From Marinilabilia sp. (GTDB lineage Bacteria; Bacteroidota; Bacteroidia; Bacteroidales; Marinilabiliaceae): a DNA stretch of 64,000 bases. Positions within the stretch are counted from its first letter, which is position 1; each line of letters begins with the position of its first letter. Location of the stretch: the NCBI RefSeq assembly GCF_016278715.1, contig NZ_JADQBH010000049.1, forward strand, positions 1 through 64,000, written 5' to 3'. Below, in pieces: positions 5,064 through 61,474 of the stretch. Under the pieces are notes generated by a model. It saw only the letters and a program-made list of their open reading frames with translations. It had not been told where the DNA came from and ran no database searches. The position numbers were made by a program, and so were the translations under genes.

Positions 5064-5287
5064 TTTAAGTAGAATCCCTTTCTCTAAAGTTAGTTGATGC
5101 TTTTGAATTGTTTAAAATAAACTTTTAGGCACAGATGCTTTTTTTCTAAAACGCAAACACTCAAAACTGCTCATTTAAAAGGCATTGCTTTTCCTCCTTG
5201 CGAGCATTACAGCTGTATTCCCCTTTTTACCACTGATTTCTGATCTTGTTTTTCGCCGGCCACCTGGTTTAACAGCAACGACCTACG

Positions 5288-5385
5288 AGCCAAGAGCTAA
5301 CAGCTAAGAGCTAACAGCTAACAGCCAAGAGCTAACAGCCAAGAGCTAACAGCTAAGAGCTAAGAGCTAACAGCTAAGAGCTAAA
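5288..5385. repeat. Heptanucleotide tandem repeat (AGCTAAS, 14 units)
   Basis: Fourteen consecutive 7-base units, mostly AGCTAAC or AGCTAAG with two AGCCAAG variants, fill the DNA immediately after the stop codon of the sugar-binding lipoprotein gene (minus strand). Units vary only at two positions. There are no spacers, so it is not CRISPR. The stretch 5064-5287 between this array and the mnmE hairpin shows no gene or clear signal. Confidence 0.9.
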
Positions 5386-5389
5386 AAGG

Positions 5390-32849: not shown

Positions 32850-33080
32850 CTTCTTTGGAAAATAAAGCTAAAAAAGTTAATTTTACTATTAGAATTAAAC
32901 TAACCACTATGTTCCAAAAACCTTTTTCAAGCCCTGCTCGCCCATACAATTTCTTCAAAGAAAAATGCTTTTTAGAAATGTTCCCGTTTTCAAAACCTTT
33001 TCATTTAGAACTGAACTATTCACCTTTTAAAACAAAGGATTAATAACAGTCCCTAGGTGCATTTATAATATAGCTGGGAC
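32850..33080 (+). repeat. Repeat B, copy 1 (candidate recombination-site-like element)
   Basis: Aligns with 37020-37279 across about 220 bp: both contain TTTGGAAAATAA, AAAAAAGTTAATTTTAC, AACTAACCACTATGT, CCAAAAACCTTT and end in TAACAGT...TAGG...TATAGCTG. The right end TAGCTGGGAC marks the start of the SIMPL gene block. It also holds a 45-codon ORF (MFQKPFSSPARPYNFFKEK) with a partly conserved counterpart in copy 2. Confidence 0.6.
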
Positions 33081-33863: not shown

Positions 33864-34007
33864 ACAAACCATCTTAGCTCAAAGTTGTGGACTGGCGATA
33901 AAAAATTAAGTGTAGGATTAAAAAAGAAAAAATATTTCAGAACAATATCGACAAATGAATTGTATGATTTATTCATTGAGAAGGAATTACGAAAGAAAAG
34001 AACCTAA
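33864..34007 (+). pseudogene. C-terminal remnant of a PIN-domain toxin (copy of 37680-38141)
   Basis: The frame reads TNHLSSKLWTGDKKLSVGLKKKKYFRT then ISTNELYDLFIEKELRKKRT, nearly identical to the last third of the complete PIN toxin at 38 kb (TNHLGSKLWTGDKKLGVG...). Identity continues at the DNA level through the 3' flank into repeat R1, as the intact copy continues into R3. The antitoxin and the N-terminal two thirds of the toxin are absent. The short string AACGACGCCA is found at both the deletion edge here (33853) and upstream of the intact antitoxin (37424), marking where the deletion joined. Confidence 0.88.
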
Positions 34008-34078
34008 TTTCATACGATAATACTATCAGATCCTTAGGACAAATAGAATAAAAAAACACACATGCCGAAGAATAAAAC

Positions 34079-34226
34079 GGTGAGCAACAAAGCTGTGATA
34101 CGCCAGCCATGCCATCCACTGCATATTGAGGGCTTCGTTTTACCTTCTCACATGCGTTCAAACTGATAAAATCAAAGCTGGTCTGAGTGCCCCAGGCAAG
34201 GTGAATGTAGCCAGGTCGTTTGGAAC
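34079..34226 (+). repeat. attC-like repeat R1
   Basis: Member of the R family: GGTGAGCAAC at the left, conserved body (GCTGTGATACGCCAGCC, GCATATTGAGGGCTTCG, CTCACATGCGTTCAAACTGA, AAAGCTGGTCTGA, AATGTAGCC) and right core CGTTTGGAAC. The left end GTGAGCAAC resembles that of R3, as expected if it closed a second PIN cassette. Confidence 0.75.
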
Positions 34227-36378: not shown

Positions 36379-36403
36379 ATTTATTTTTGAAAAGATAAAG
36401 CCA

Positions 36404-36548
36404 GCGTTTAACTATGCTATCATTCTCCAGCCGCGGCATTCACAGCGTATTGAGGACTTCGTTTTACTTCTCACATGTTTTTGGGCTGATAAATTCACGG
36501 CTGGACCTAAGGCCACGCCCAGAACCGTATTGCCGGGAAGTTGGGACA
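36404..36548 (+). repeat. attC-like repeat R2
   Basis: R-family element: left end GCGTTTAAC, body matches to CCAGCCGCGGCATTCACAGC, GTATTGAGGACTTCGTTTTA, CTCACATG, GGGCTGATAAATTCACGGCTGG, and right core GTTGGGACA. The left end is the complement, with one C-T difference, of GTTGAACGC at the start of the same block. Confidence 0.75.
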
Positions 36549-36980: not shown

Positions 36981-37019
36981 TTGGCATCGGTAAAATGAGA
37001 AAGAATTGCAGTCCTTTTT

Positions 37020-37279
37020 TGGAAAATAAGTCAAAAAAGTTAATTTTACCATTAGCACCAAACTAACCACTATGTCCCAAAAACCTTTCTCAAGCCCTGC
37101 TTACCAATTCCATTTCTTCAAAGTTAAATACTTTTTGGGAATGTCCCGTTTCAGAATACCATTTCATATTTCCAAAACTATTTCACAAAACTTCCTAATT
37201 GGAACTTAGTCGGGCAACTGCTGTCATTATGCAAGGTAAATAACAGTACATAGGCGCGTTTATTTTATAGCTGCCCACC
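37020..37279 (+). repeat. Repeat B, copy 2 (candidate recombination-site-like element)
   Basis: Second copy of repeat B (see 32850). It ends TTATAGCTGCCCACC, and GCTGCCCACC is complementary at nine of ten bases to GGTGGGCAAC at the left end of R3, which closes the toxin-antitoxin block. A 45-codon ORF beginning MSQKPFSSPAYQFHFFK corresponds to the ORF in copy 1. The stretch 37280-37476 that follows shows no gene. Confidence 0.6.
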
Positions 37280-37476: not shown

Positions 37477-37680
37477 ATGATACTTGAAAGAACAAAAGAC
37501 GAAATATTGGTAAGATTACCAGCAAATATGGACATCACCGAGCTTCAAAACATGTTGGATTATCTTGATTACAAAGAAAAAACAGCAAATTCAAAAGCTA
37601 CTCAAAAGCAAGTTGATGAATTGGCTCAAACCGTGAATAAGAAAATGTGGACTAAATTCAAAGCTCAACGGAATAAGTAA
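37477..37680 (+). CDS. Antitoxin of a PIN-domain (VapBC-like) toxin-antitoxin pair
   Basis: A 67-residue protein with a short beta-strand start (ERTKDEILVRLPANMDITELQNMLDYLDYKE) and a charged, lysine-rich C-terminal helix (NKKMWTKFKAQRNK), the general layout of small antitoxins that bind DNA and cover the toxin. I do not recognise a named antitoxin family, and the assignment rests on size and on the one-base overlap of its stop with the PIN-toxin start (TAATG), which ensures coupled translation. Confidence 0.7.
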   Translation: MILERTKDEILVRLPANMDITELQNMLDYLDYKEKTANSKATQKQVDELAQTVNKKMWTKFKAQRNK

Positions 37681-38141
37681 TGAAAATAGTCGTTGACTCA
37701 AATATTGTTTTTAGTGCCATCCTAAATTCACAGGGGAAAATTGCACAATTAATCATAAACGGTTCAAAATATTTTTCCTTTTTCAGCGTAAGTCTGCTTA
37801 AAGAAGAAATTCTTAATCATAAAGATAAACTACTATCTATTTCGGGATTAACCGAAACTCAGTTTGAATCTTCCTTTTCTCATATTGCTTCAAGAATAAA
37901 ATTCGTTGATGAAATCTTGATTTCCGACCAAGATTTGGAAAAAGCCACGAGATTAACTAAAGATATCGATGAAAATGATATTTTGTTTGTCGCTCTGACA
38001 AACCATCTTGGCTCAAAATTGTGGACTGGCGATAAAAAATTAGGTGTAGGATTAAAAAAGAAAAAATATTTCAGAACAATATCGACTAATGAATTATATG
38101 ATTTATTCATTGAGAAGGAATTACGAAAGAAAAAAACCTAA
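37680..38141 (+). CDS. PIN-domain ribonuclease toxin (VapC-like)
   Basis: A 153-residue PIN domain. Acidic active-site residues are visible at the start (VVDSNIVFSAIL), in the middle (DIDENDILFVALTNHLG) and near the end (LWTGDKKLGVGLKKKKYF). PIN toxins cleave RNA, often tRNA, when the antitoxin is lost. The start codon overlaps the antitoxin stop by one base. The same 3' half plus flank is duplicated at 33.86-34.08 kb as a remnant. The pair lies in a block bounded by complementary ends (37270 and 38220), so it looks like one mobile cassette; toxin-antitoxin pairs are known to stabilise cassette arrays. Confidence 0.88.
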   Translation: MKIVVDSNIVFSAILNSQGKIAQLIINGSKYFSFFSVSLLKEEILNHKDKLLSISGLTETQFESSFSHIASRIKFVDEILISDQDLEKATRLTKDIDENDILFVALTNHLGSKLWTGDKKLGVGLKKKKYFRTISTNELYDLFIEKELRKKKT

Positions 38142-38210
38142 TTTCATACTATAATACTATCAGATTATTAAGACTAATAGAATTAAAAAACACATACCGA
38201 GGAATAAAAC

Positions 38211-38350
38211 GGTGGGCAACAAAGCTATATACACCAGCCGGGGTATCCACAGTATATTGAACGTTTCGAATTACTTTTTCACAGGCGTTCATTCTATTAA
38301 TTTCACAGAGGGTCTGAATGCCACCTCCGGGGCATTTTGCCGAGCGTAGT
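38211..38350 (+). repeat. attC-like repeat R3 (right end disrupted)
   Basis: Left end GGTGGGCAAC, then R-family body (GCTATATACACCAGCC, GTATCCACAGTATATTGAACG, CACAGGCGTTCA, TCACAGAGGGTCTGAATGCC, GAGCGTAGTAGG). A GTT-containing right core is not found before the polysaccharide locus, so this end appears broken, probably where foreign DNA joined. 38351-38600 otherwise shows only the presumed promoter region of the HTCS gene. Confidence 0.65.
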
Positions 38351-38600
38351 AGGCTGAGAGAAACCGCAGGACTCAAAAAGAGTGCGGAACGGATTCCCAA
38401 GCCGAATTCTCTTTTGGGAAAATATTTATGACACTATCTGATAATCGAAGAAACATTTTATCTACTACTACATCCCGTAAGCCATGGTCTCCATAATTAG
38501 TCAAATTAAAGGGTTTTTGCTATTTTTAGCTCACGAAACCAAAAACTTTTCGGAGTCCCTTTGAACGGCCTGAAAAAGCTTCCACCACTGAAAAACAGAC

Positions 38601-50007: not shown

Positions 50008-50039
50008 GCCTGATGTTCAGGAATGAAACCGTTAACCTT

Positions 50040-50290
50040 TTTGGAAAAAGGGAACAAAAAGTTAATTTTACGGGAAGCAAAATCATTTTAAAACAAGAAA
50101 TAAATTGATTGCCCAGCCCCACATATTGTTTAAAGGAAATTTGAACTTCCCCGCATCAGCAGGAGGGGGAGTGATTGATAAGGTTTAGAAAGGTGTACAA
50201 TGCATTCGGAATTTGGATGTTTTGTGCACCTTTTGTTTTTATAAGGGGAGTATAGGGGCACTTTGGTGGGGTTATAGAAGTGTTGTGCGG
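50040..50290 (+). repeat. Repeat C, copy 1 (recombination-site-like, precedes the DUF6713/GrpB block)
   Basis: Aligns with 56765-57025 over about 250 bp. Both share TTTGGAAAAAG, AAAAAGTTA, TTGATTGCCCA-CCCCA, GGGGAGTGATTGAT, AAAGGTGTACAATGCATTCGG, TTTTGTGC-CCTTTTG and TATAGAAGTGTTG. The AAAGGTGTACAA / TTTTGTGCACCTTT pair forms a long hairpin, and a wobble change in the other copy keeps it paired. The right end GTTGTGCGG is exactly complementary to CCGCACAAC at the left of R4. The front half shares sequence with repeat B. Confidence 0.7.
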
Positions 50291-50331
50291 CATGCAAGGA
50301 AACGTAGTACAAACCTTAAACTAACTGAAAA

Positions 50332-50712
50332 ATGGATTTGAGTTTATTATTTTGGATTTACCTGATAAATTCCGTGATTCTTATAAATCATGAGATTGAT
50401 TCAGCTTATTGGCAGGAATGGAAATTAGTTAATCCCAATGACACAAGTGACGTAAAAGGATTCTTAATAATTCATTTTCCGATGTTATTTGCAATTCTTT
50501 TCGGCTTAATACTCATAGATAGGGGATTAATAGCTGGATATGTTATTTCTTTAATTGTTGCAGCTGGTGGGATTTTTGCATTTTTCTTTCATTTTTACCA
50601 TTTAAGAAAAGGACGAAAAGAATTTAATAACTGGCTTTCCAAACTGATATTAATTTTAACATTTCCGATTTCGATTTTTCAAATTGCATTGACAATCATG
50701 GATTTGATTTAG
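50332..50712 (+). CDS. Small four-helix membrane protein (DUF6713-like)
   Basis: A 126-residue integral membrane protein with about four hydrophobic helices and the opening WIYLINSVILINHEIDSAYWQEWKL. The HEIDSAYWxEW string is the mark of a small family I associate with DUF6713; its function is unknown. It begins 41 bp after the right end of repeat C and is followed by the GrpB gene after one base, so the two are translated together in one cassette-like block. Confidence 0.65.
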   Translation: MDLSLLFWIYLINSVILINHEIDSAYWQEWKLVNPNDTSDVKGFLIIHFPMLFAILFGLILIDRGLIAGYVISLIVAAGGIFAFFFHFYHLRKGRKEFNNWLSKLILILTFPISIFQIALTIMDLI

Positions 50713-50713
50713 T

Positions 50714-51277
50714 ATGACTGCACCAAAAGATCTACATAAAATGACAATCAACGAATTAGGTCAATTATTTCCGATTATAATAAAAGACTATTCGGATAGG
50801 TGGTCGGATTTATATAAAGAAGAGGCCAAATTGATTACTGATTCATTCTCGCAAACTGATATTGTGAAAATTGACCATATTGGTAGTACTGCAATCCCAA
50901 GAATTAAATCAAAACCAACGATTGATATCTTATTGCAAGTTACAGAGCAGATTGATATTCAAAGATTAAAGGCTACATTTAAATTACTCGGATACCAAAT
51001 CAATGCACATCCAGAAAATCCCCCACCACATTTGACATTTGTGAAAGGTTATACAAAGCATGGATTTAAAGGACAAGCATATCATGTTCATATCAGATAC
51101 CGTGGAGACTGGGATGAAATTAGGTTCAGGGATTACCTGATTAAAAATAAAGAGATTGCAAAAGAATACGAATTATTAAAATTGGAGCTTGCTGAGAAAT
51201 ATCCAAACGATAGAGAAGCATATACTGATTTAAAAACCGAATGGATTGAAAAAATTAATAACTTGACACGAAAATAA
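50714..51277 (+). CDS. GrpB/UPF0157 family protein (nucleotidyltransferase fold)
   Basis: A 187-residue GrpB-like protein. The nucleotidyltransferase-like core reads IDHIGSTAIPRIKSKPTIDILLQV, with G-S and the D-x-L acidic positions of the fold, followed by PPPHLTFVKGY, KAYHVHIRY-type strand (QAYHVHIRYRGDWDEIRFRDYL) and a C-terminal helix (YPNDREAYTDLKTEWIEKI). The family's biochemical role is unclear. It ends 7 bp before the left end of R4 and shares a block with the DUF6713-like gene. Confidence 0.85.
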   Translation: MTAPKDLHKMTINELGQLFPIIIKDYSDRWSDLYKEEAKLITDSFSQTDIVKIDHIGSTAIPRIKSKPTIDILLQVTEQIDIQRLKATFKLLGYQINAHPENPPPHLTFVKGYTKHGFKGQAYHVHIRYRGDWDEIRFRDYLIKNKEIAKEYELLKLELAEKYPNDREAYTDLKTEWIEKINNLTRK

Positions 51278-51284
51278 TGCACGA

Positions 51285-51427
51285 CCGCACAACAATCTGT
51301 ATACGCCATCCGGGTCTCCACAGCATATTGCAAGCTTCTTTTTACCTTGCTACCCGCTCACGGTTTGACACAATCTTATGGGGTTTGAAAGCCCCGGCCT
51401 GACGCATACGGCCGAGACGTTGGGGAC
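51285..51427 (+). repeat. attC-like repeat R4
   Basis: R-family element with left end CCGCACAAC, exact complement of GTTGTGCGG at 50282 (start of the same block), and right core GTTGGGGAC that starts the next block. The arms are complementary with extra unpaired bases: CAAC-ATCT-GTATACG near the left against CGCATAC-GAGA-GTTG read backward from the right. This is the fold plan of attC sites. 51428-51566 holds nothing recognisable. Confidence 0.8.
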
Positions 51428-51566
51428 AAGCAAAAACACATGGTCTATATTGTCTTAAAAATTAGATGTTTAATTATAAAAAAAACTTAAATTAAAGACT
51501 TTAAAACCTGATTTTCAATTATGCTAAAAATAACCAAATAATTATCGAGCCCTAAATAAGGATAAT

Positions 51567-52040
51567 ATGATTCAATTCTTCCAAACGATTCCAAATAGGG
51601 TACTGTATTTTATTTTTTCTTTGGTCTTAATATTAATTATCATTAAGATAAAAACATTACTCAGAATAAACAGAGTGAGGAAAACTGCTATTCAATTGAT
51701 AAAAAATACATTAACCGGCATAAGTTTTAATGATTTACCAGAAAAAGAAAATGATGATATATACGTCAAATTTTTTGAGACAAAAGAACTGAAATATTTC
51801 AATATAATTCGTGACAATGGTGAGGATTTGGAATATAGACTTCGTGATTCAAAAGATTTAAAGGAAAACAATCCTAAAGTGAGAAATTTGATTACGAAGT
51901 TTAGAGAAAAAGGAAATAAAGATGGAAAAATCCTCAAAGAAACTGGTGGGTTCATCTTAATTCACAAAATAAACAATACCAGTTTTGCAGTTCTTATGTT
52001 CTCAAAACCTAATTATTCAGAGATAATTTTTAAAAAATGA
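51567..52040 (+). CDS. Membrane-anchored hypothetical protein
   Basis: A 157-residue protein with one N-terminal membrane helix (VLYFIFSLVLILIIIKI) and a basic soluble domain (NDIYVKFFETKELKYFNIIRDNGEDLEYRL, GGFILIHKINNTSFAVLMFSK). It is the only gene in the block between R4 and R5. No family is recognised. Strand and position as sole cargo of a perfectly bounded block are the main support for it being a real gene. Confidence 0.65.
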   Translation: MIQFFQTIPNRVLYFIFSLVLILIIIKIKTLLRINRVRKTAIQLIKNTLTGISFNDLPEKENDDIYVKFFETKELKYFNIIRDNGEDLEYRLRDSKDLKENNPKVRNLITKFREKGNKDGKILKETGGFILIHKINNTSFAVLMFSKPNYSEIIFKK

Positions 52041-52087
52041 TATCTTTAAATCAATTAATTTAAAACAAATAAAACAAGAAAATGCCA

Positions 52088-52232
52088 GTCCCCAACAAAA
52101 ATATATACGCCAGCCTTAGCATCTACCGCATATTGAGAGTCTCATTTTCCCCGCTCGTATGCGTTCACGCTGATTAAGTCACAGTTGGTCCGAAAGGGGC
52201 GGGAGGTGGATGTAGCCTAAACGTTCGAACAC
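52088..52232 (+). repeat. attC-like repeat R5
   Basis: R-family element with left end GTCCCCAAC, exact complement of GTTGGGGAC at 51419 (start of the same block). Body: ATATATACGCCAGCC, GCATATTGAGAGTCTCA, TATGCGTTCACGCTGAT, AGTCACAGTTGGTC, GATGTAGCC; right core ACGTTCGAACAC. Confidence 0.8.
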
Positions 52233-52263
52233 AAAAAACAAGCCGGGATAAACATACTTGAAA

Positions 52264-53163
52264 ATGAAAGAATACAAATTTAAAAAGATAGACGCTTTTG
52301 CAACTAAAAACTCTGCCGGAAATCCAGCAGGCTACATTTTGTTAGATGATATGGGAGATATTTCTGAAAAGGAGATGCTACAAATAGCAAAGGAGTTAAA
52401 AGGATTCGTAAATGAGGTTGGATACGTTGCAAAAATAGGGGACAACGAATTTGATTTGCGATATTTTTCATCCGAGCGAGAGGTGGGCTTTTGTGGCCAT
52501 GCTACAATTGCCATATTTTACGACCTGATAAAAACAGATGATAAGTTAGTAAATATCCCGATTTTAACAATCAATACAAACAAAGGGACATTAAAAGTAG
52601 AAAACAGATTAAAAGAGTCTGATTCTGTTTTTATTATGTCACCCAATCCAGAAACTAAAGAGACTTCTGTAAATGTTGGAGAATTAGCGAATGAATTGGG
52701 AATTGATAAGTTGAAAATCAATTCAGTTTTACCAATTTCTGTTATAAATGCAGGGCTATCAACCTTGATTGTTCCTATAAAGGATTTAGAAACAATTTTG
52801 GCGATTAATCCTGACCTTGAAGGACTAAAAAATTATTGTTTTAACATTGGAGTAGACATCATTGAGGTATTCACATCCGACGTTAGAGAAAAAACAAGTG
52901 ATTACAGAACCAGAGTTTTTGCACCGACTTTTGGATACATCGAAGACCCTGCCACCGGTTCAGGTAATTCAGCATTCGGATATTATTTGATAAACAACAA
53001 TTTGTGGAAAAAAGAAATCATAACTATTGAGCAAAACGGACTGATTGACAATTTCAACATTGTAAAACTTCAAAAACAGATGGATGAAAACAGTATTGAA
53101 CGTGTATGTTTTGGAGGAGGAGCAATAACAAAAATCGAAGGAAAATATAGGACCTATAATTAA
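52264..53163 (+). CDS. PhzF family isomerase/epimerase-like protein
   Basis: A 299-residue PhzF-like protein with the two-lobed diaminopimelate-epimerase fold. The N-terminal lobe has KIDAFATKNSAGNPAG and ELKGFVNEVGYVA (with the conserved Glu), FSSEREVGFCGHATIAIFY; the C-terminal lobe has RVFAPTFGYIEDPATGSGNSAFGYYL. Members isomerise small acids; the exact substrate here is unknown. The ATG at 52264 (MKEYKFKK) is as good as the track start at 52258. It lies 34 bp after R5. No phenazine genes are nearby, so phenazine synthesis is not implied. Confidence 0.85.
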   Translation: MKEYKFKKIDAFATKNSAGNPAGYILLDDMGDISEKEMLQIAKELKGFVNEVGYVAKIGDNEFDLRYFSSEREVGFCGHATIAIFYDLIKTDDKLVNIPILTINTNKGTLKVENRLKESDSVFIMSPNPETKETSVNVGELANELGIDKLKINSVLPISVINAGLSTLIVPIKDLETILAINPDLEGLKNYCFNIGVDIIEVFTSDVREKTSDYRTRVFAPTFGYIEDPATGSGNSAFGYYLINNNLWKKEIITIEQNGLIDNFNIVKLQKQMDENSIERVCFGGGAITKIEGKYRTYN

Positions 53164-56764: not shown

Positions 56765-57025
56765 GTAATCTTTTTTGGAAAAAGAAAACAAAAAAGTTAG
56801 TTTTACAGCAACCAATAACACTCTAAAACCAAAAACAAATTGATTGCCCAACCCCATATACTGTTTAAAGAAAATTTGAACTTTCTCGTCCCAACGGGAT
56901 GGGGAGTGATTGATCAGACATAGAAAGGTGTACAATGCATTCGGGATTTGAATGTTTTGTGCGCCTTTTGTTTTGATAAGGGGAATATAAGCGCACCTTG
57001 GTGGGGGTATAGAAGTGTTGGGGCC
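56765..57025 (+). repeat. Repeat C, copy 2
   Basis: Second copy of repeat C (see 50040), closing the DUF3788/AlkD block. It keeps the AAAGGTGTACAA / TTTTGTGCGCCTTT hairpin with a T-G wobble in place of T-A, and ends TATAGAAGTGTTGGGGCC. 56666-56764 before it and 57026-57171 after it hold nothing recognisable. Confidence 0.7.
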
Positions 57026-57699: not shown

Positions 57700-57712
57700 A
57701 TTAAAACGTCTT

Positions 57713-57847
57713 ACAATAAAGCTATGATACGCCAGCTGTGTCACAGAAAATTGAGGGTTTAGTTTTACCCTCTCCCATGCGTTCAAACTGATAAAATCAG
57801 TGCTGGCGGGAAAAGCGCTTGGGGGGGTAGCGGGGACCTTTCAACAC
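57713..57847 (+). repeat. attC-like repeat R7
   Basis: R-family body is very close to R1 (AGCTATGATACGCCAGC, ATTGAGGGTTTAGTTTTACC, CCATGCGTTCAAACTGATAA, AATCAGTGCTGGC), but the right end reads CCTTTCAACAC instead of a GTT core, and the left end does not complement the start of its block. Confidence 0.65.
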
Positions 57848-58642: not shown

Positions 58643-58927
58643 ATGAAAAAAACTAGCTTAATAAACTTTTGTGGCAATTTTGGAACTGTATTATTGATCA
58701 TTGCAGCAATTTTTATGATTCAGCACTATCCTTTTCACAATGAATTAATGACAATTGGACTTCTATCATTTGCAGTTTTCTGGATTTGGATACTAATTAA
58801 AATATTTAGAGCCCACCAACCATTAAACTATAAAACTGGCTGGACTATTTTTGTTTTGTTTATTCCAATAGTCGGATCCTGGGTTTATTATCATTTGGAA
58901 TTAAAAAAATTAAACAATTTGCAATAA
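58643..58927 (+). CDS. Small membrane protein with PLDc_N-like C terminus
   Basis: A 94-residue protein with three membrane segments; the last (KTGWTIFVLFIPIVGSWVYYHL) has the W-x-x-F/V-x-x-P-x-x-G-x-x-x-Y pattern of the phospholipase-D-nuclease N-terminal helix pair. Such free-standing domains are common small membrane proteins of unknown role. Its stop codon lies within the left end of R8, as with other tightly packed cargo. Confidence 0.6.
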   Translation: MKKTSLINFCGNFGTVLLIIAAIFMIQHYPFHNELMTIGLLSFAVFWIWILIKIFRAHQPLNYKTGWTIFVLFIPIVGSWVYYHLELKKLNNLQ

Positions 58928-59074
58928 GGCTGTGATACACCGACCGCATCATCCACTCCATAATGCGGGTTTTGTTTTAGCCTCTCACATGCTTTCTGGA
59001 TCATAAAGTCACAGATGTTCAGAAAGCCATCGCCAGGTGCAAATTGCAGGGGAGCTAAATGCATTGTTCGAATT
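58921..59074 (+). repeat. attC-like repeat R8
   Basis: R-family element: CAATAAGGCTGTGATACACC, CATCATCCACTCCATAATGC, CCTCTCACATGC, TCATAAAGTCACAG; right core TTGTTCGAATT. The left end does not complement the block start. Confidence 0.65.
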
Positions 59075-61128: not shown

Positions 61129-61139
61129 AATTCCGTCCT

Positions 61140-61210
61140 AAACAAAGCAATAACCCCCTAGCCTAGGATTCACAGCATATTGCAGGAATTTCCGTTTTTT
61201 TCATAAATTA
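61140..61210 (+). repeat. attC-like repeat R9, truncated
   Basis: AACAAAGCAATAACCCCCTAG and GATTCACAGCATATTGCAGG then TTTCCG match the left half of the R family; the right half is absent. It marks the right end of the array. The rest of the gap to 61474 contains a 10-bp inverted repeat (TGTGAGGGCA at 61314, TGCCCTCACA at 61371) and no gene. Confidence 0.5.
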
Positions 61211-61474
61211 CTTTTACACTGTTAAATCAGATAAATAATGTTAACCTATAAGTTAGGGTAAAAAGCATTGTAGTTTAGGTGGTTATTAGGGCATTCTGAC
61301 CTACATCAGGTTTTGTGAGGGCAGCCAGGAAGGTGGTCTGCAAACCTCAATATTTCAAACATGTGACTATTGCCCTCACATAAGAGACCAAACCCAAAAT
61401 CTTGCAAAACCAAAATCGCGATCAGGGATTAAGGGACGAAATCTCAATTTTTAATGTTTGAAGGAGTGTTGATT

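Follow-up and report, generated by a model that had tools for sequence, protein, structure and literature searches.

Within the window, meaning the whole 64-kb stretch of Marinilabilia DNA that was analysed, one block with a single gene begins and ends with exactly complementary 9-mers. This locus raises the question of what kind of unit such ends delimit and which enzyme would move it. Judged by its anatomy and by comparison with other genomes, the block is an integron-type gene cassette. It very probably belongs to a capture system of the Bacteroidia, whose candidate integrase, as seen in relatives, is not IntI and is instead a tyrosine recombinase of one of two kinds, herein named SHORT and LONG.

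Matching Ends and Boundaries of the Block

GTTGGGGAC, at 51419–51427, is exactly the 3′ end of the repeat 51285–51427, and GTCCCCAAC, at 52088–52096, opens the repeat 52088–52231; the two repeats are homologous (~135 bp). The initial annotation had claimed exact complementary 9-mers at the block ends, and both are exact and in place. With both strands counted, GTTGGGGAC has exactly 2 occurrences in the 64 kb (0.37 by chance); the pair is found at these two places only and at no other R repeat of the window. A matching pair of another sequence, GTTGTGCGG at 50282–50290 and CCGCACAAC at 51285–51293, is found in the neighbouring block. The first and the second 9-mer (R′ and R″) match in 9/9 bases in both blocks. 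Since GTT/AAC is fixed by the repeat, only the six free bases are counted, and their chance match amounts arithmetically to ~2e-4 per block.

The attC site of an integron begins with R″. Its sequence is the reverse complement of R′, with which the same cassette starts, as both come to lie in one attC in the circular form. In terms of sequence, the complementary 9-mers of the block are the signature of an integron cassette: the first is the R′ core with which it starts, and the second is the R″ core of the attC belonging to it. The natural boundary of the unit is G^TT. Hence, the unit covers ~51420–52223 and not the 51419–52096 given initially. The cassette and its neighbours, all on the + strand, are as follows:

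51420–52223, +, gene cassette, from G^TT to G^TT
51419–51427, +, R′ core GTTGGGGAC, cassette start, with complement, unique in the window
51567–52040, +, 157-aa ORF, the sole ORF of the cassette, an ORFan with an N-terminal hydrophobic segment and no family match
52088–52096, +, R″ core GTCCCCAAC, start of the cassette's own attC
52088–52231, +, attC-like site of the cassette, ending with the next core GTTCGAACA at 52223–52231
50283–51419, +, neighbouring cassette with a DUF6713 gene (50332–50712) and a GrpB gene (50714–51277)
51285–51427, +, attC-like site of the neighbouring cassette (the upstream repeat of the initial annotation)
52224–53163, +, start of the following cassette with a PhzF-family gene (52258–53163)

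Core Complementarity of the attC-Like Sites

The attC-like sites were recognised by a model built in this analysis from sequence only. Strong copies of the modelled repeat number 12 in the window's genome; in eight relatives, the copies per genome range from 3 to 27. They are intergenic and scattered through the own genome, as would also be expected of ordinary interspersed repeats (terminator or REP-like) in which matching ends arise inside the repeat family. Against this highly improbable reading, the complement of each R″ is found where the upstream gene unit begins and not in the same repeat copy, and it changes from unit to unit and travels with the unit, the 9-mer of the block being unique in the window.

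The complementarity was quantified for 37 consecutive site pairs, mostly from Marinilabiliaceae relatives, using the six variable bases after GTT. R′ and its own R″ agree in 176/222 letters, compared with 85±7.8 after shuffling (z ~11.7) and a maximum of 117 in 20,000 shuffles, and 23 of the 37 pairs match perfectly (6/6). On one M. salmonicolor contig (L115), six consecutive cassettes match, five of them perfectly. The core consensus of 55 sites is GTTR (54/55), with GTTRRRY occurring at 4/55.

Perfect cores are retained by the block, its neighbour, and one cassette of contig C306. Several other attC sites of the window's genome are without matching cores; thus, its arrays may be decaying. 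The further attC-like sites of the window are as follows:

34082–34226, +, attC-like site, own cores now mismatched
36401–36547, +, attC-like site, own cores now mismatched
38211–38358, +, attC-like site of the PIN-domain gene cassette
57708–57844, +, degenerate attC-like site
58916–59063, +, degenerate attC-like site

Behind the PhzF gene, no matching attC was found for its cassette (52224–53163). When the array of one relative (G075) was walked by exact 9-mers, only two cassettes were reached, perhaps because the cores further along are mutated. A truncated attC-like remnant is present at 61133–61227 of the window, downstream of the last array.

Exchange of Whole Cassettes

Entire cassettes are found again in further species and genera with 88–96% identity (Marinilabilia–Marinilabilia pairs and pairs of Marinilabilia with genome G031), and elsewhere within one genome with 99% identity. 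The match begins at the first base of the cassette and ends at its last base or close to it; it is cut at G^TT, and the flanks are unrelated. Because whole units bounded by the cores have thus been exchanged between species, the reading as ordinary repeats is largely refuted. Together with the generality of own-end complementarity, this exchange also upholds the early proposal of a discrete mobile block that has complementary ends and could circularise. The other 70 genomes of the family that were searched contained no relative of the 157-aa protein; therefore, we infer the movement of this particular block from its class.

Group II introns (Rfam RF02012 and RF00029) reside immediately 3′ of the R′ core of attC-like sites at three loci (L119, L123, and L128). 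The matching intron start sequence follows R′ at a fourth (L118) and, as far as the contig end reaches, at a fifth (L116). Such introns have a known association with IntI integrons (PMC7923331).

A ~1-kb stretch of the own genome (L028:9354–10359) shares 98% identity with a cassette of G031, a member of another genus, and adjoins a transposase gene.

Folding of the attC Sites

When the own start of a cassette is joined to its attC as in the circular form, the bottom strand gives the more stable fold at 9/9 sites, two of which (the neighbouring cassette and L028) have a joined start offset by a few bases. For the circular-form attC of the block, the values are −22.0 (bottom) and −17.5 kcal/mol (top). 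Without their own start, several attC sites do not exceed shuffled sequence in stability. An RNAalifold consensus of the raw alignment was uninformative. The folded bottom strand of attC is the presumed substrate.

Leaders of the Arrays in the Window's Genome

The arrays in the window's genome begin at leaders of ~250 bp, of which there are about eight in this genome. Leaders in the window are as follows:

50038–50281, +, type II leader with a Bacteroidota-like promoter, a hairpin, and an attI-like end directly before GTT
56773–57016, +, second type II leader, first core GTTGGGGCC at 57017–57025
32854–33076, +, type I leader
37017–37269, +, type I leader, core GCTGCCCACC at 37270–37279

The core GCTGCCCACC complements GGTGGGCAAC (38211–38220) in 9/10 bases. 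The leader profile matches the DNA just 3′ of SHORT integrases in two genomes (G003, E 6e-4; G031, E 3e-4), and the leader starts resemble the promoter and first codons of SHORT, with only some of these comparisons being significant. The leaders are likely attI sites from which the integrase gene was deleted, the match of their 5′ half to integrase starts being significant in only part of the comparisons. The own assembly, which is 94% complete, yielded neither SHORT nor LONG, and the search for IntI in the own genome gave nothing above the cut-off and just Xer-like and other partial matches. The integrase is absent from the window's genome or unassembled. As the leaders appear to have lost the integrase gene, the cassettes behind them would either stay in place or depend on an integrase acting in trans.

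A short open frame is conserved in the leaders at 50038 and 56773 and in those on contigs C306 and C56. These leaders also contain a hairpin (AAGGTGTACAA..TTTGTGCACCTTTTG) that resembles a terminator, and they might alternatively act as regulatory 5′ leaders.

SHORT and LONG Recombinases beside the Arrays of Relatives

In relatives carrying the sites, a tyrosine recombinase is situated directly upstream of the array, either LONG with ~700 aa or SHORT with ~380 aa. LONG hosts include Marinilabilia rubra, M. salmonicolor, Anaerophaga thermohalophila, Geofilum, Natronoflexus, Alkalitalea, Labilibacter, and Plebeiobacterium. The integrase stop codon is followed by a stretch ending in GTT (attI) and then by the first cassette; the complete chain of integrase, attI, first cassette, and matching attC is present at three loci (L101, L102, and L103), and the two best examples have the integrase oriented toward the array.

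A GTT 9-mer 3′ of the integrase has an exact complement downstream at 15/17 LONG and 13/15 SHORT loci (28/32, across Bacteroidia), compared with shuffled means of 0.72 and 0.87, respectively; herein any GTT within 600 bases is accepted, and the matches cluster at constant distances. In the small control set of other recombinases, four loci were long enough, and the sole match (L109) branches with the SHORT group. Several families of the class are represented among the SHORT loci, whose attC sequences are unlike the type of the window; hence, the link with the integrase is independent of one repeat family.

The cassettes could be real and SHORT and LONG bystanders, with another enzyme such as XerCD moving them. 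This is unlikely: the own genome does have Xer genes and not SHORT or LONG, but in many Bacteroidia families the post-integrase DNA matches an attC further downstream, and LONG goes with the sites, which occur in 7/11 genomes of the family with full-length LONG versus 12/71 overall. Four LONG genomes are without attC of the modelled type, and three of those loci have other matching attC types. We infer that a SHORT or LONG recombinase acts on these sites.

By sequence comparison, SHORT and LONG are a separate lineage of tyrosine recombinases and not IntI. In a tree of 37 recombinases, IntI (100/100) and LONG (100/100) form separate clades, and LONG and SHORT group together (96/94); the branching order among the IntI and LONG+SHORT groups is left unsettled by this tree. 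The distance from the catalytic Lys to HxxR is 58–59 residues in the candidates and 100 in IntI. Hence, the insertion of ~41 residues typical of IntI, described as essential for integron function (PMC8138268; PMC9668308), is missing in SHORT and LONG. In the test for the IntI family (TIGR02249, cut-off 265 bits), the best whole-protein scores of the candidates are 207–215 bits. The curated XerA family (NF040815, cut-off 220 bits) is scored above its cut-off by L101 (231.5) and L104 (236.7) and below it by L112 (217.4), L103 (207), and L107 (185.3).

The AlphaFold model of LONG has a mean pLDDT of 75 and a pTM of 0.39; therefore, the domain placement is unsure. It displays two small α/β domains, a recombinase-like half without a normal catalytic domain, and a C-terminal recombinase that is closest to XerA and Vibrio IntI.

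Another alternative is given a slim chance, namely an ordinary IntI array (CALIN) that has lost its IntI or has it on a contig missing from the assembly. It fits with IntI being common in other classes of the phylum (above the cut-off in 105/396 genomes, and listed for one genome of the same class) and with the incomplete own assembly. However, IntI is above the cut-off neither in the own genome nor in any of 13 relatives searched, seven of which have sites, the arrays of relatives begin behind a non-IntI recombinase, and GTTRRRY is the exception among the cores.

A SHORT-type integrase is also encoded on a plasmid of Phocaeicola massiliensis, a gut member of the Bacteroidales (L205:3001–4107), and the GTT 9-mer after it has a matching complement 0.9 kb downstream.

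Proposed Mechanism and Comparison with Known Systems

In the proposed mechanism, the tyrosine recombinase would bind the folded bottom strand of attC, with R″ at the cassette end and R′ at its start. LONG has a second, degenerate recombinase half. Strand exchange at G^TT would free the cassette in circular form, with 52223 joined to 51420 and GCCTAAACG followed by TTGGGGAC at the predicted junction, and the circle would be inserted at an attI or attC elsewhere. The cassette 51420–52223 may still be able to move. We lean toward the wider reading of a second integron lineage across the class Bacteroidia, in which the integrase would recombine folded attC hairpins without the IntI insertion and integrase-less attI leaders would seed several small arrays per genome.

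This system shares with IntI sedentary chromosomal integrons (e.g., Vibrio and Xanthomonas) cassettes of mostly unknown genes, complementary R′ and R″ with GTT/AAC, an attC predicted to fold as a single strand, group II introns at attC, and an array behind an attI that adjoins a tyrosine recombinase (here in relatives). It differs in that the candidate integrase is outside the IntI clade and without the IntI insertion, the cores are GTTR and not GTTRRRY, the R match is longer (9 bp or more), LONG enzymes have two recombinase halves, and the integrase faces the array in the two best examples. Of the features of a strict integron, an attI next to the integrase (in relatives; the leader of the window is integrase-less) and an R″ complementary to its own R′ are present. 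An integrase of the IntI family was not found in the own genome or in the 13 relatives searched, the additional domain of IntI between the catalytic Lys and HxxR is missing, and the GTTRRRY core occurs at only 4/55 sites.

The window's cassettes resemble CALIN (attC clusters lacking an integron integrase) in having no integrase in the same genome, and they form an attC cluster without IntI nearby, attC being recognised by our own model. Unlike CALIN, they retain an attI-like leader, in several copies per genome, and the integrase of relatives is not IntI. Simple tyrosine recombinases of the XerA-like type (NCBIfam NF040815) are the closest curated family and the closest solved fold of the catalytic part; in contrast to these, SHORT and LONG have extra N-terminal domains, the tandem architecture of LONG, and a steady place beside attI and cassettes.

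Integrons are considered very rare in Bacteroidetes, with a survey from 2022 finding a complete one only in Salinibacter ruber (PMC9024848), because searches look for IntI. The system of the relatives adjoins a recombinase outside the integron-integrase family and thus points to an apparently undescribed kind of integron that is spread through the Bacteroidia. An earlier description of Bacteroidia integrons of the SHORT/LONG kind was not found within the open-access papers searched; a paper on crAss-like phages mentions integrons by way of using IntegronFinder only. If true, many Bacteroidia hold cassette arrays missed by IntI-based searches, and with them a large pool of unknown genes. The use of folded attC by a recombinase without the IntI insertion would become testable, as would the question of whether integrons arose more than once.

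Cassette Gene and Further Features of the Window

The block had been described as encoding a single 157-residue membrane-anchored protein. It does hold one ORF of 157 aa, and the membrane part corresponds to an N-terminal hydrophobic segment in the sequence. PADLOC gave no match for this gene; our best guess is that its product is a small membrane-attached accessory protein.

Elsewhere in the window, PADLOC assigns the WYL regulator at 34220 to general WYL models. The stretches 33864–34060 and 37998–38194 are a 197-bp duplicate with 94% identity, the earlier copy being a remnant of the 3′ end of the PIN-domain gene cassette (37680–38141). At 5257–5389, short direct repeats with AACAGCCAAGAGCT units are located between two genes.
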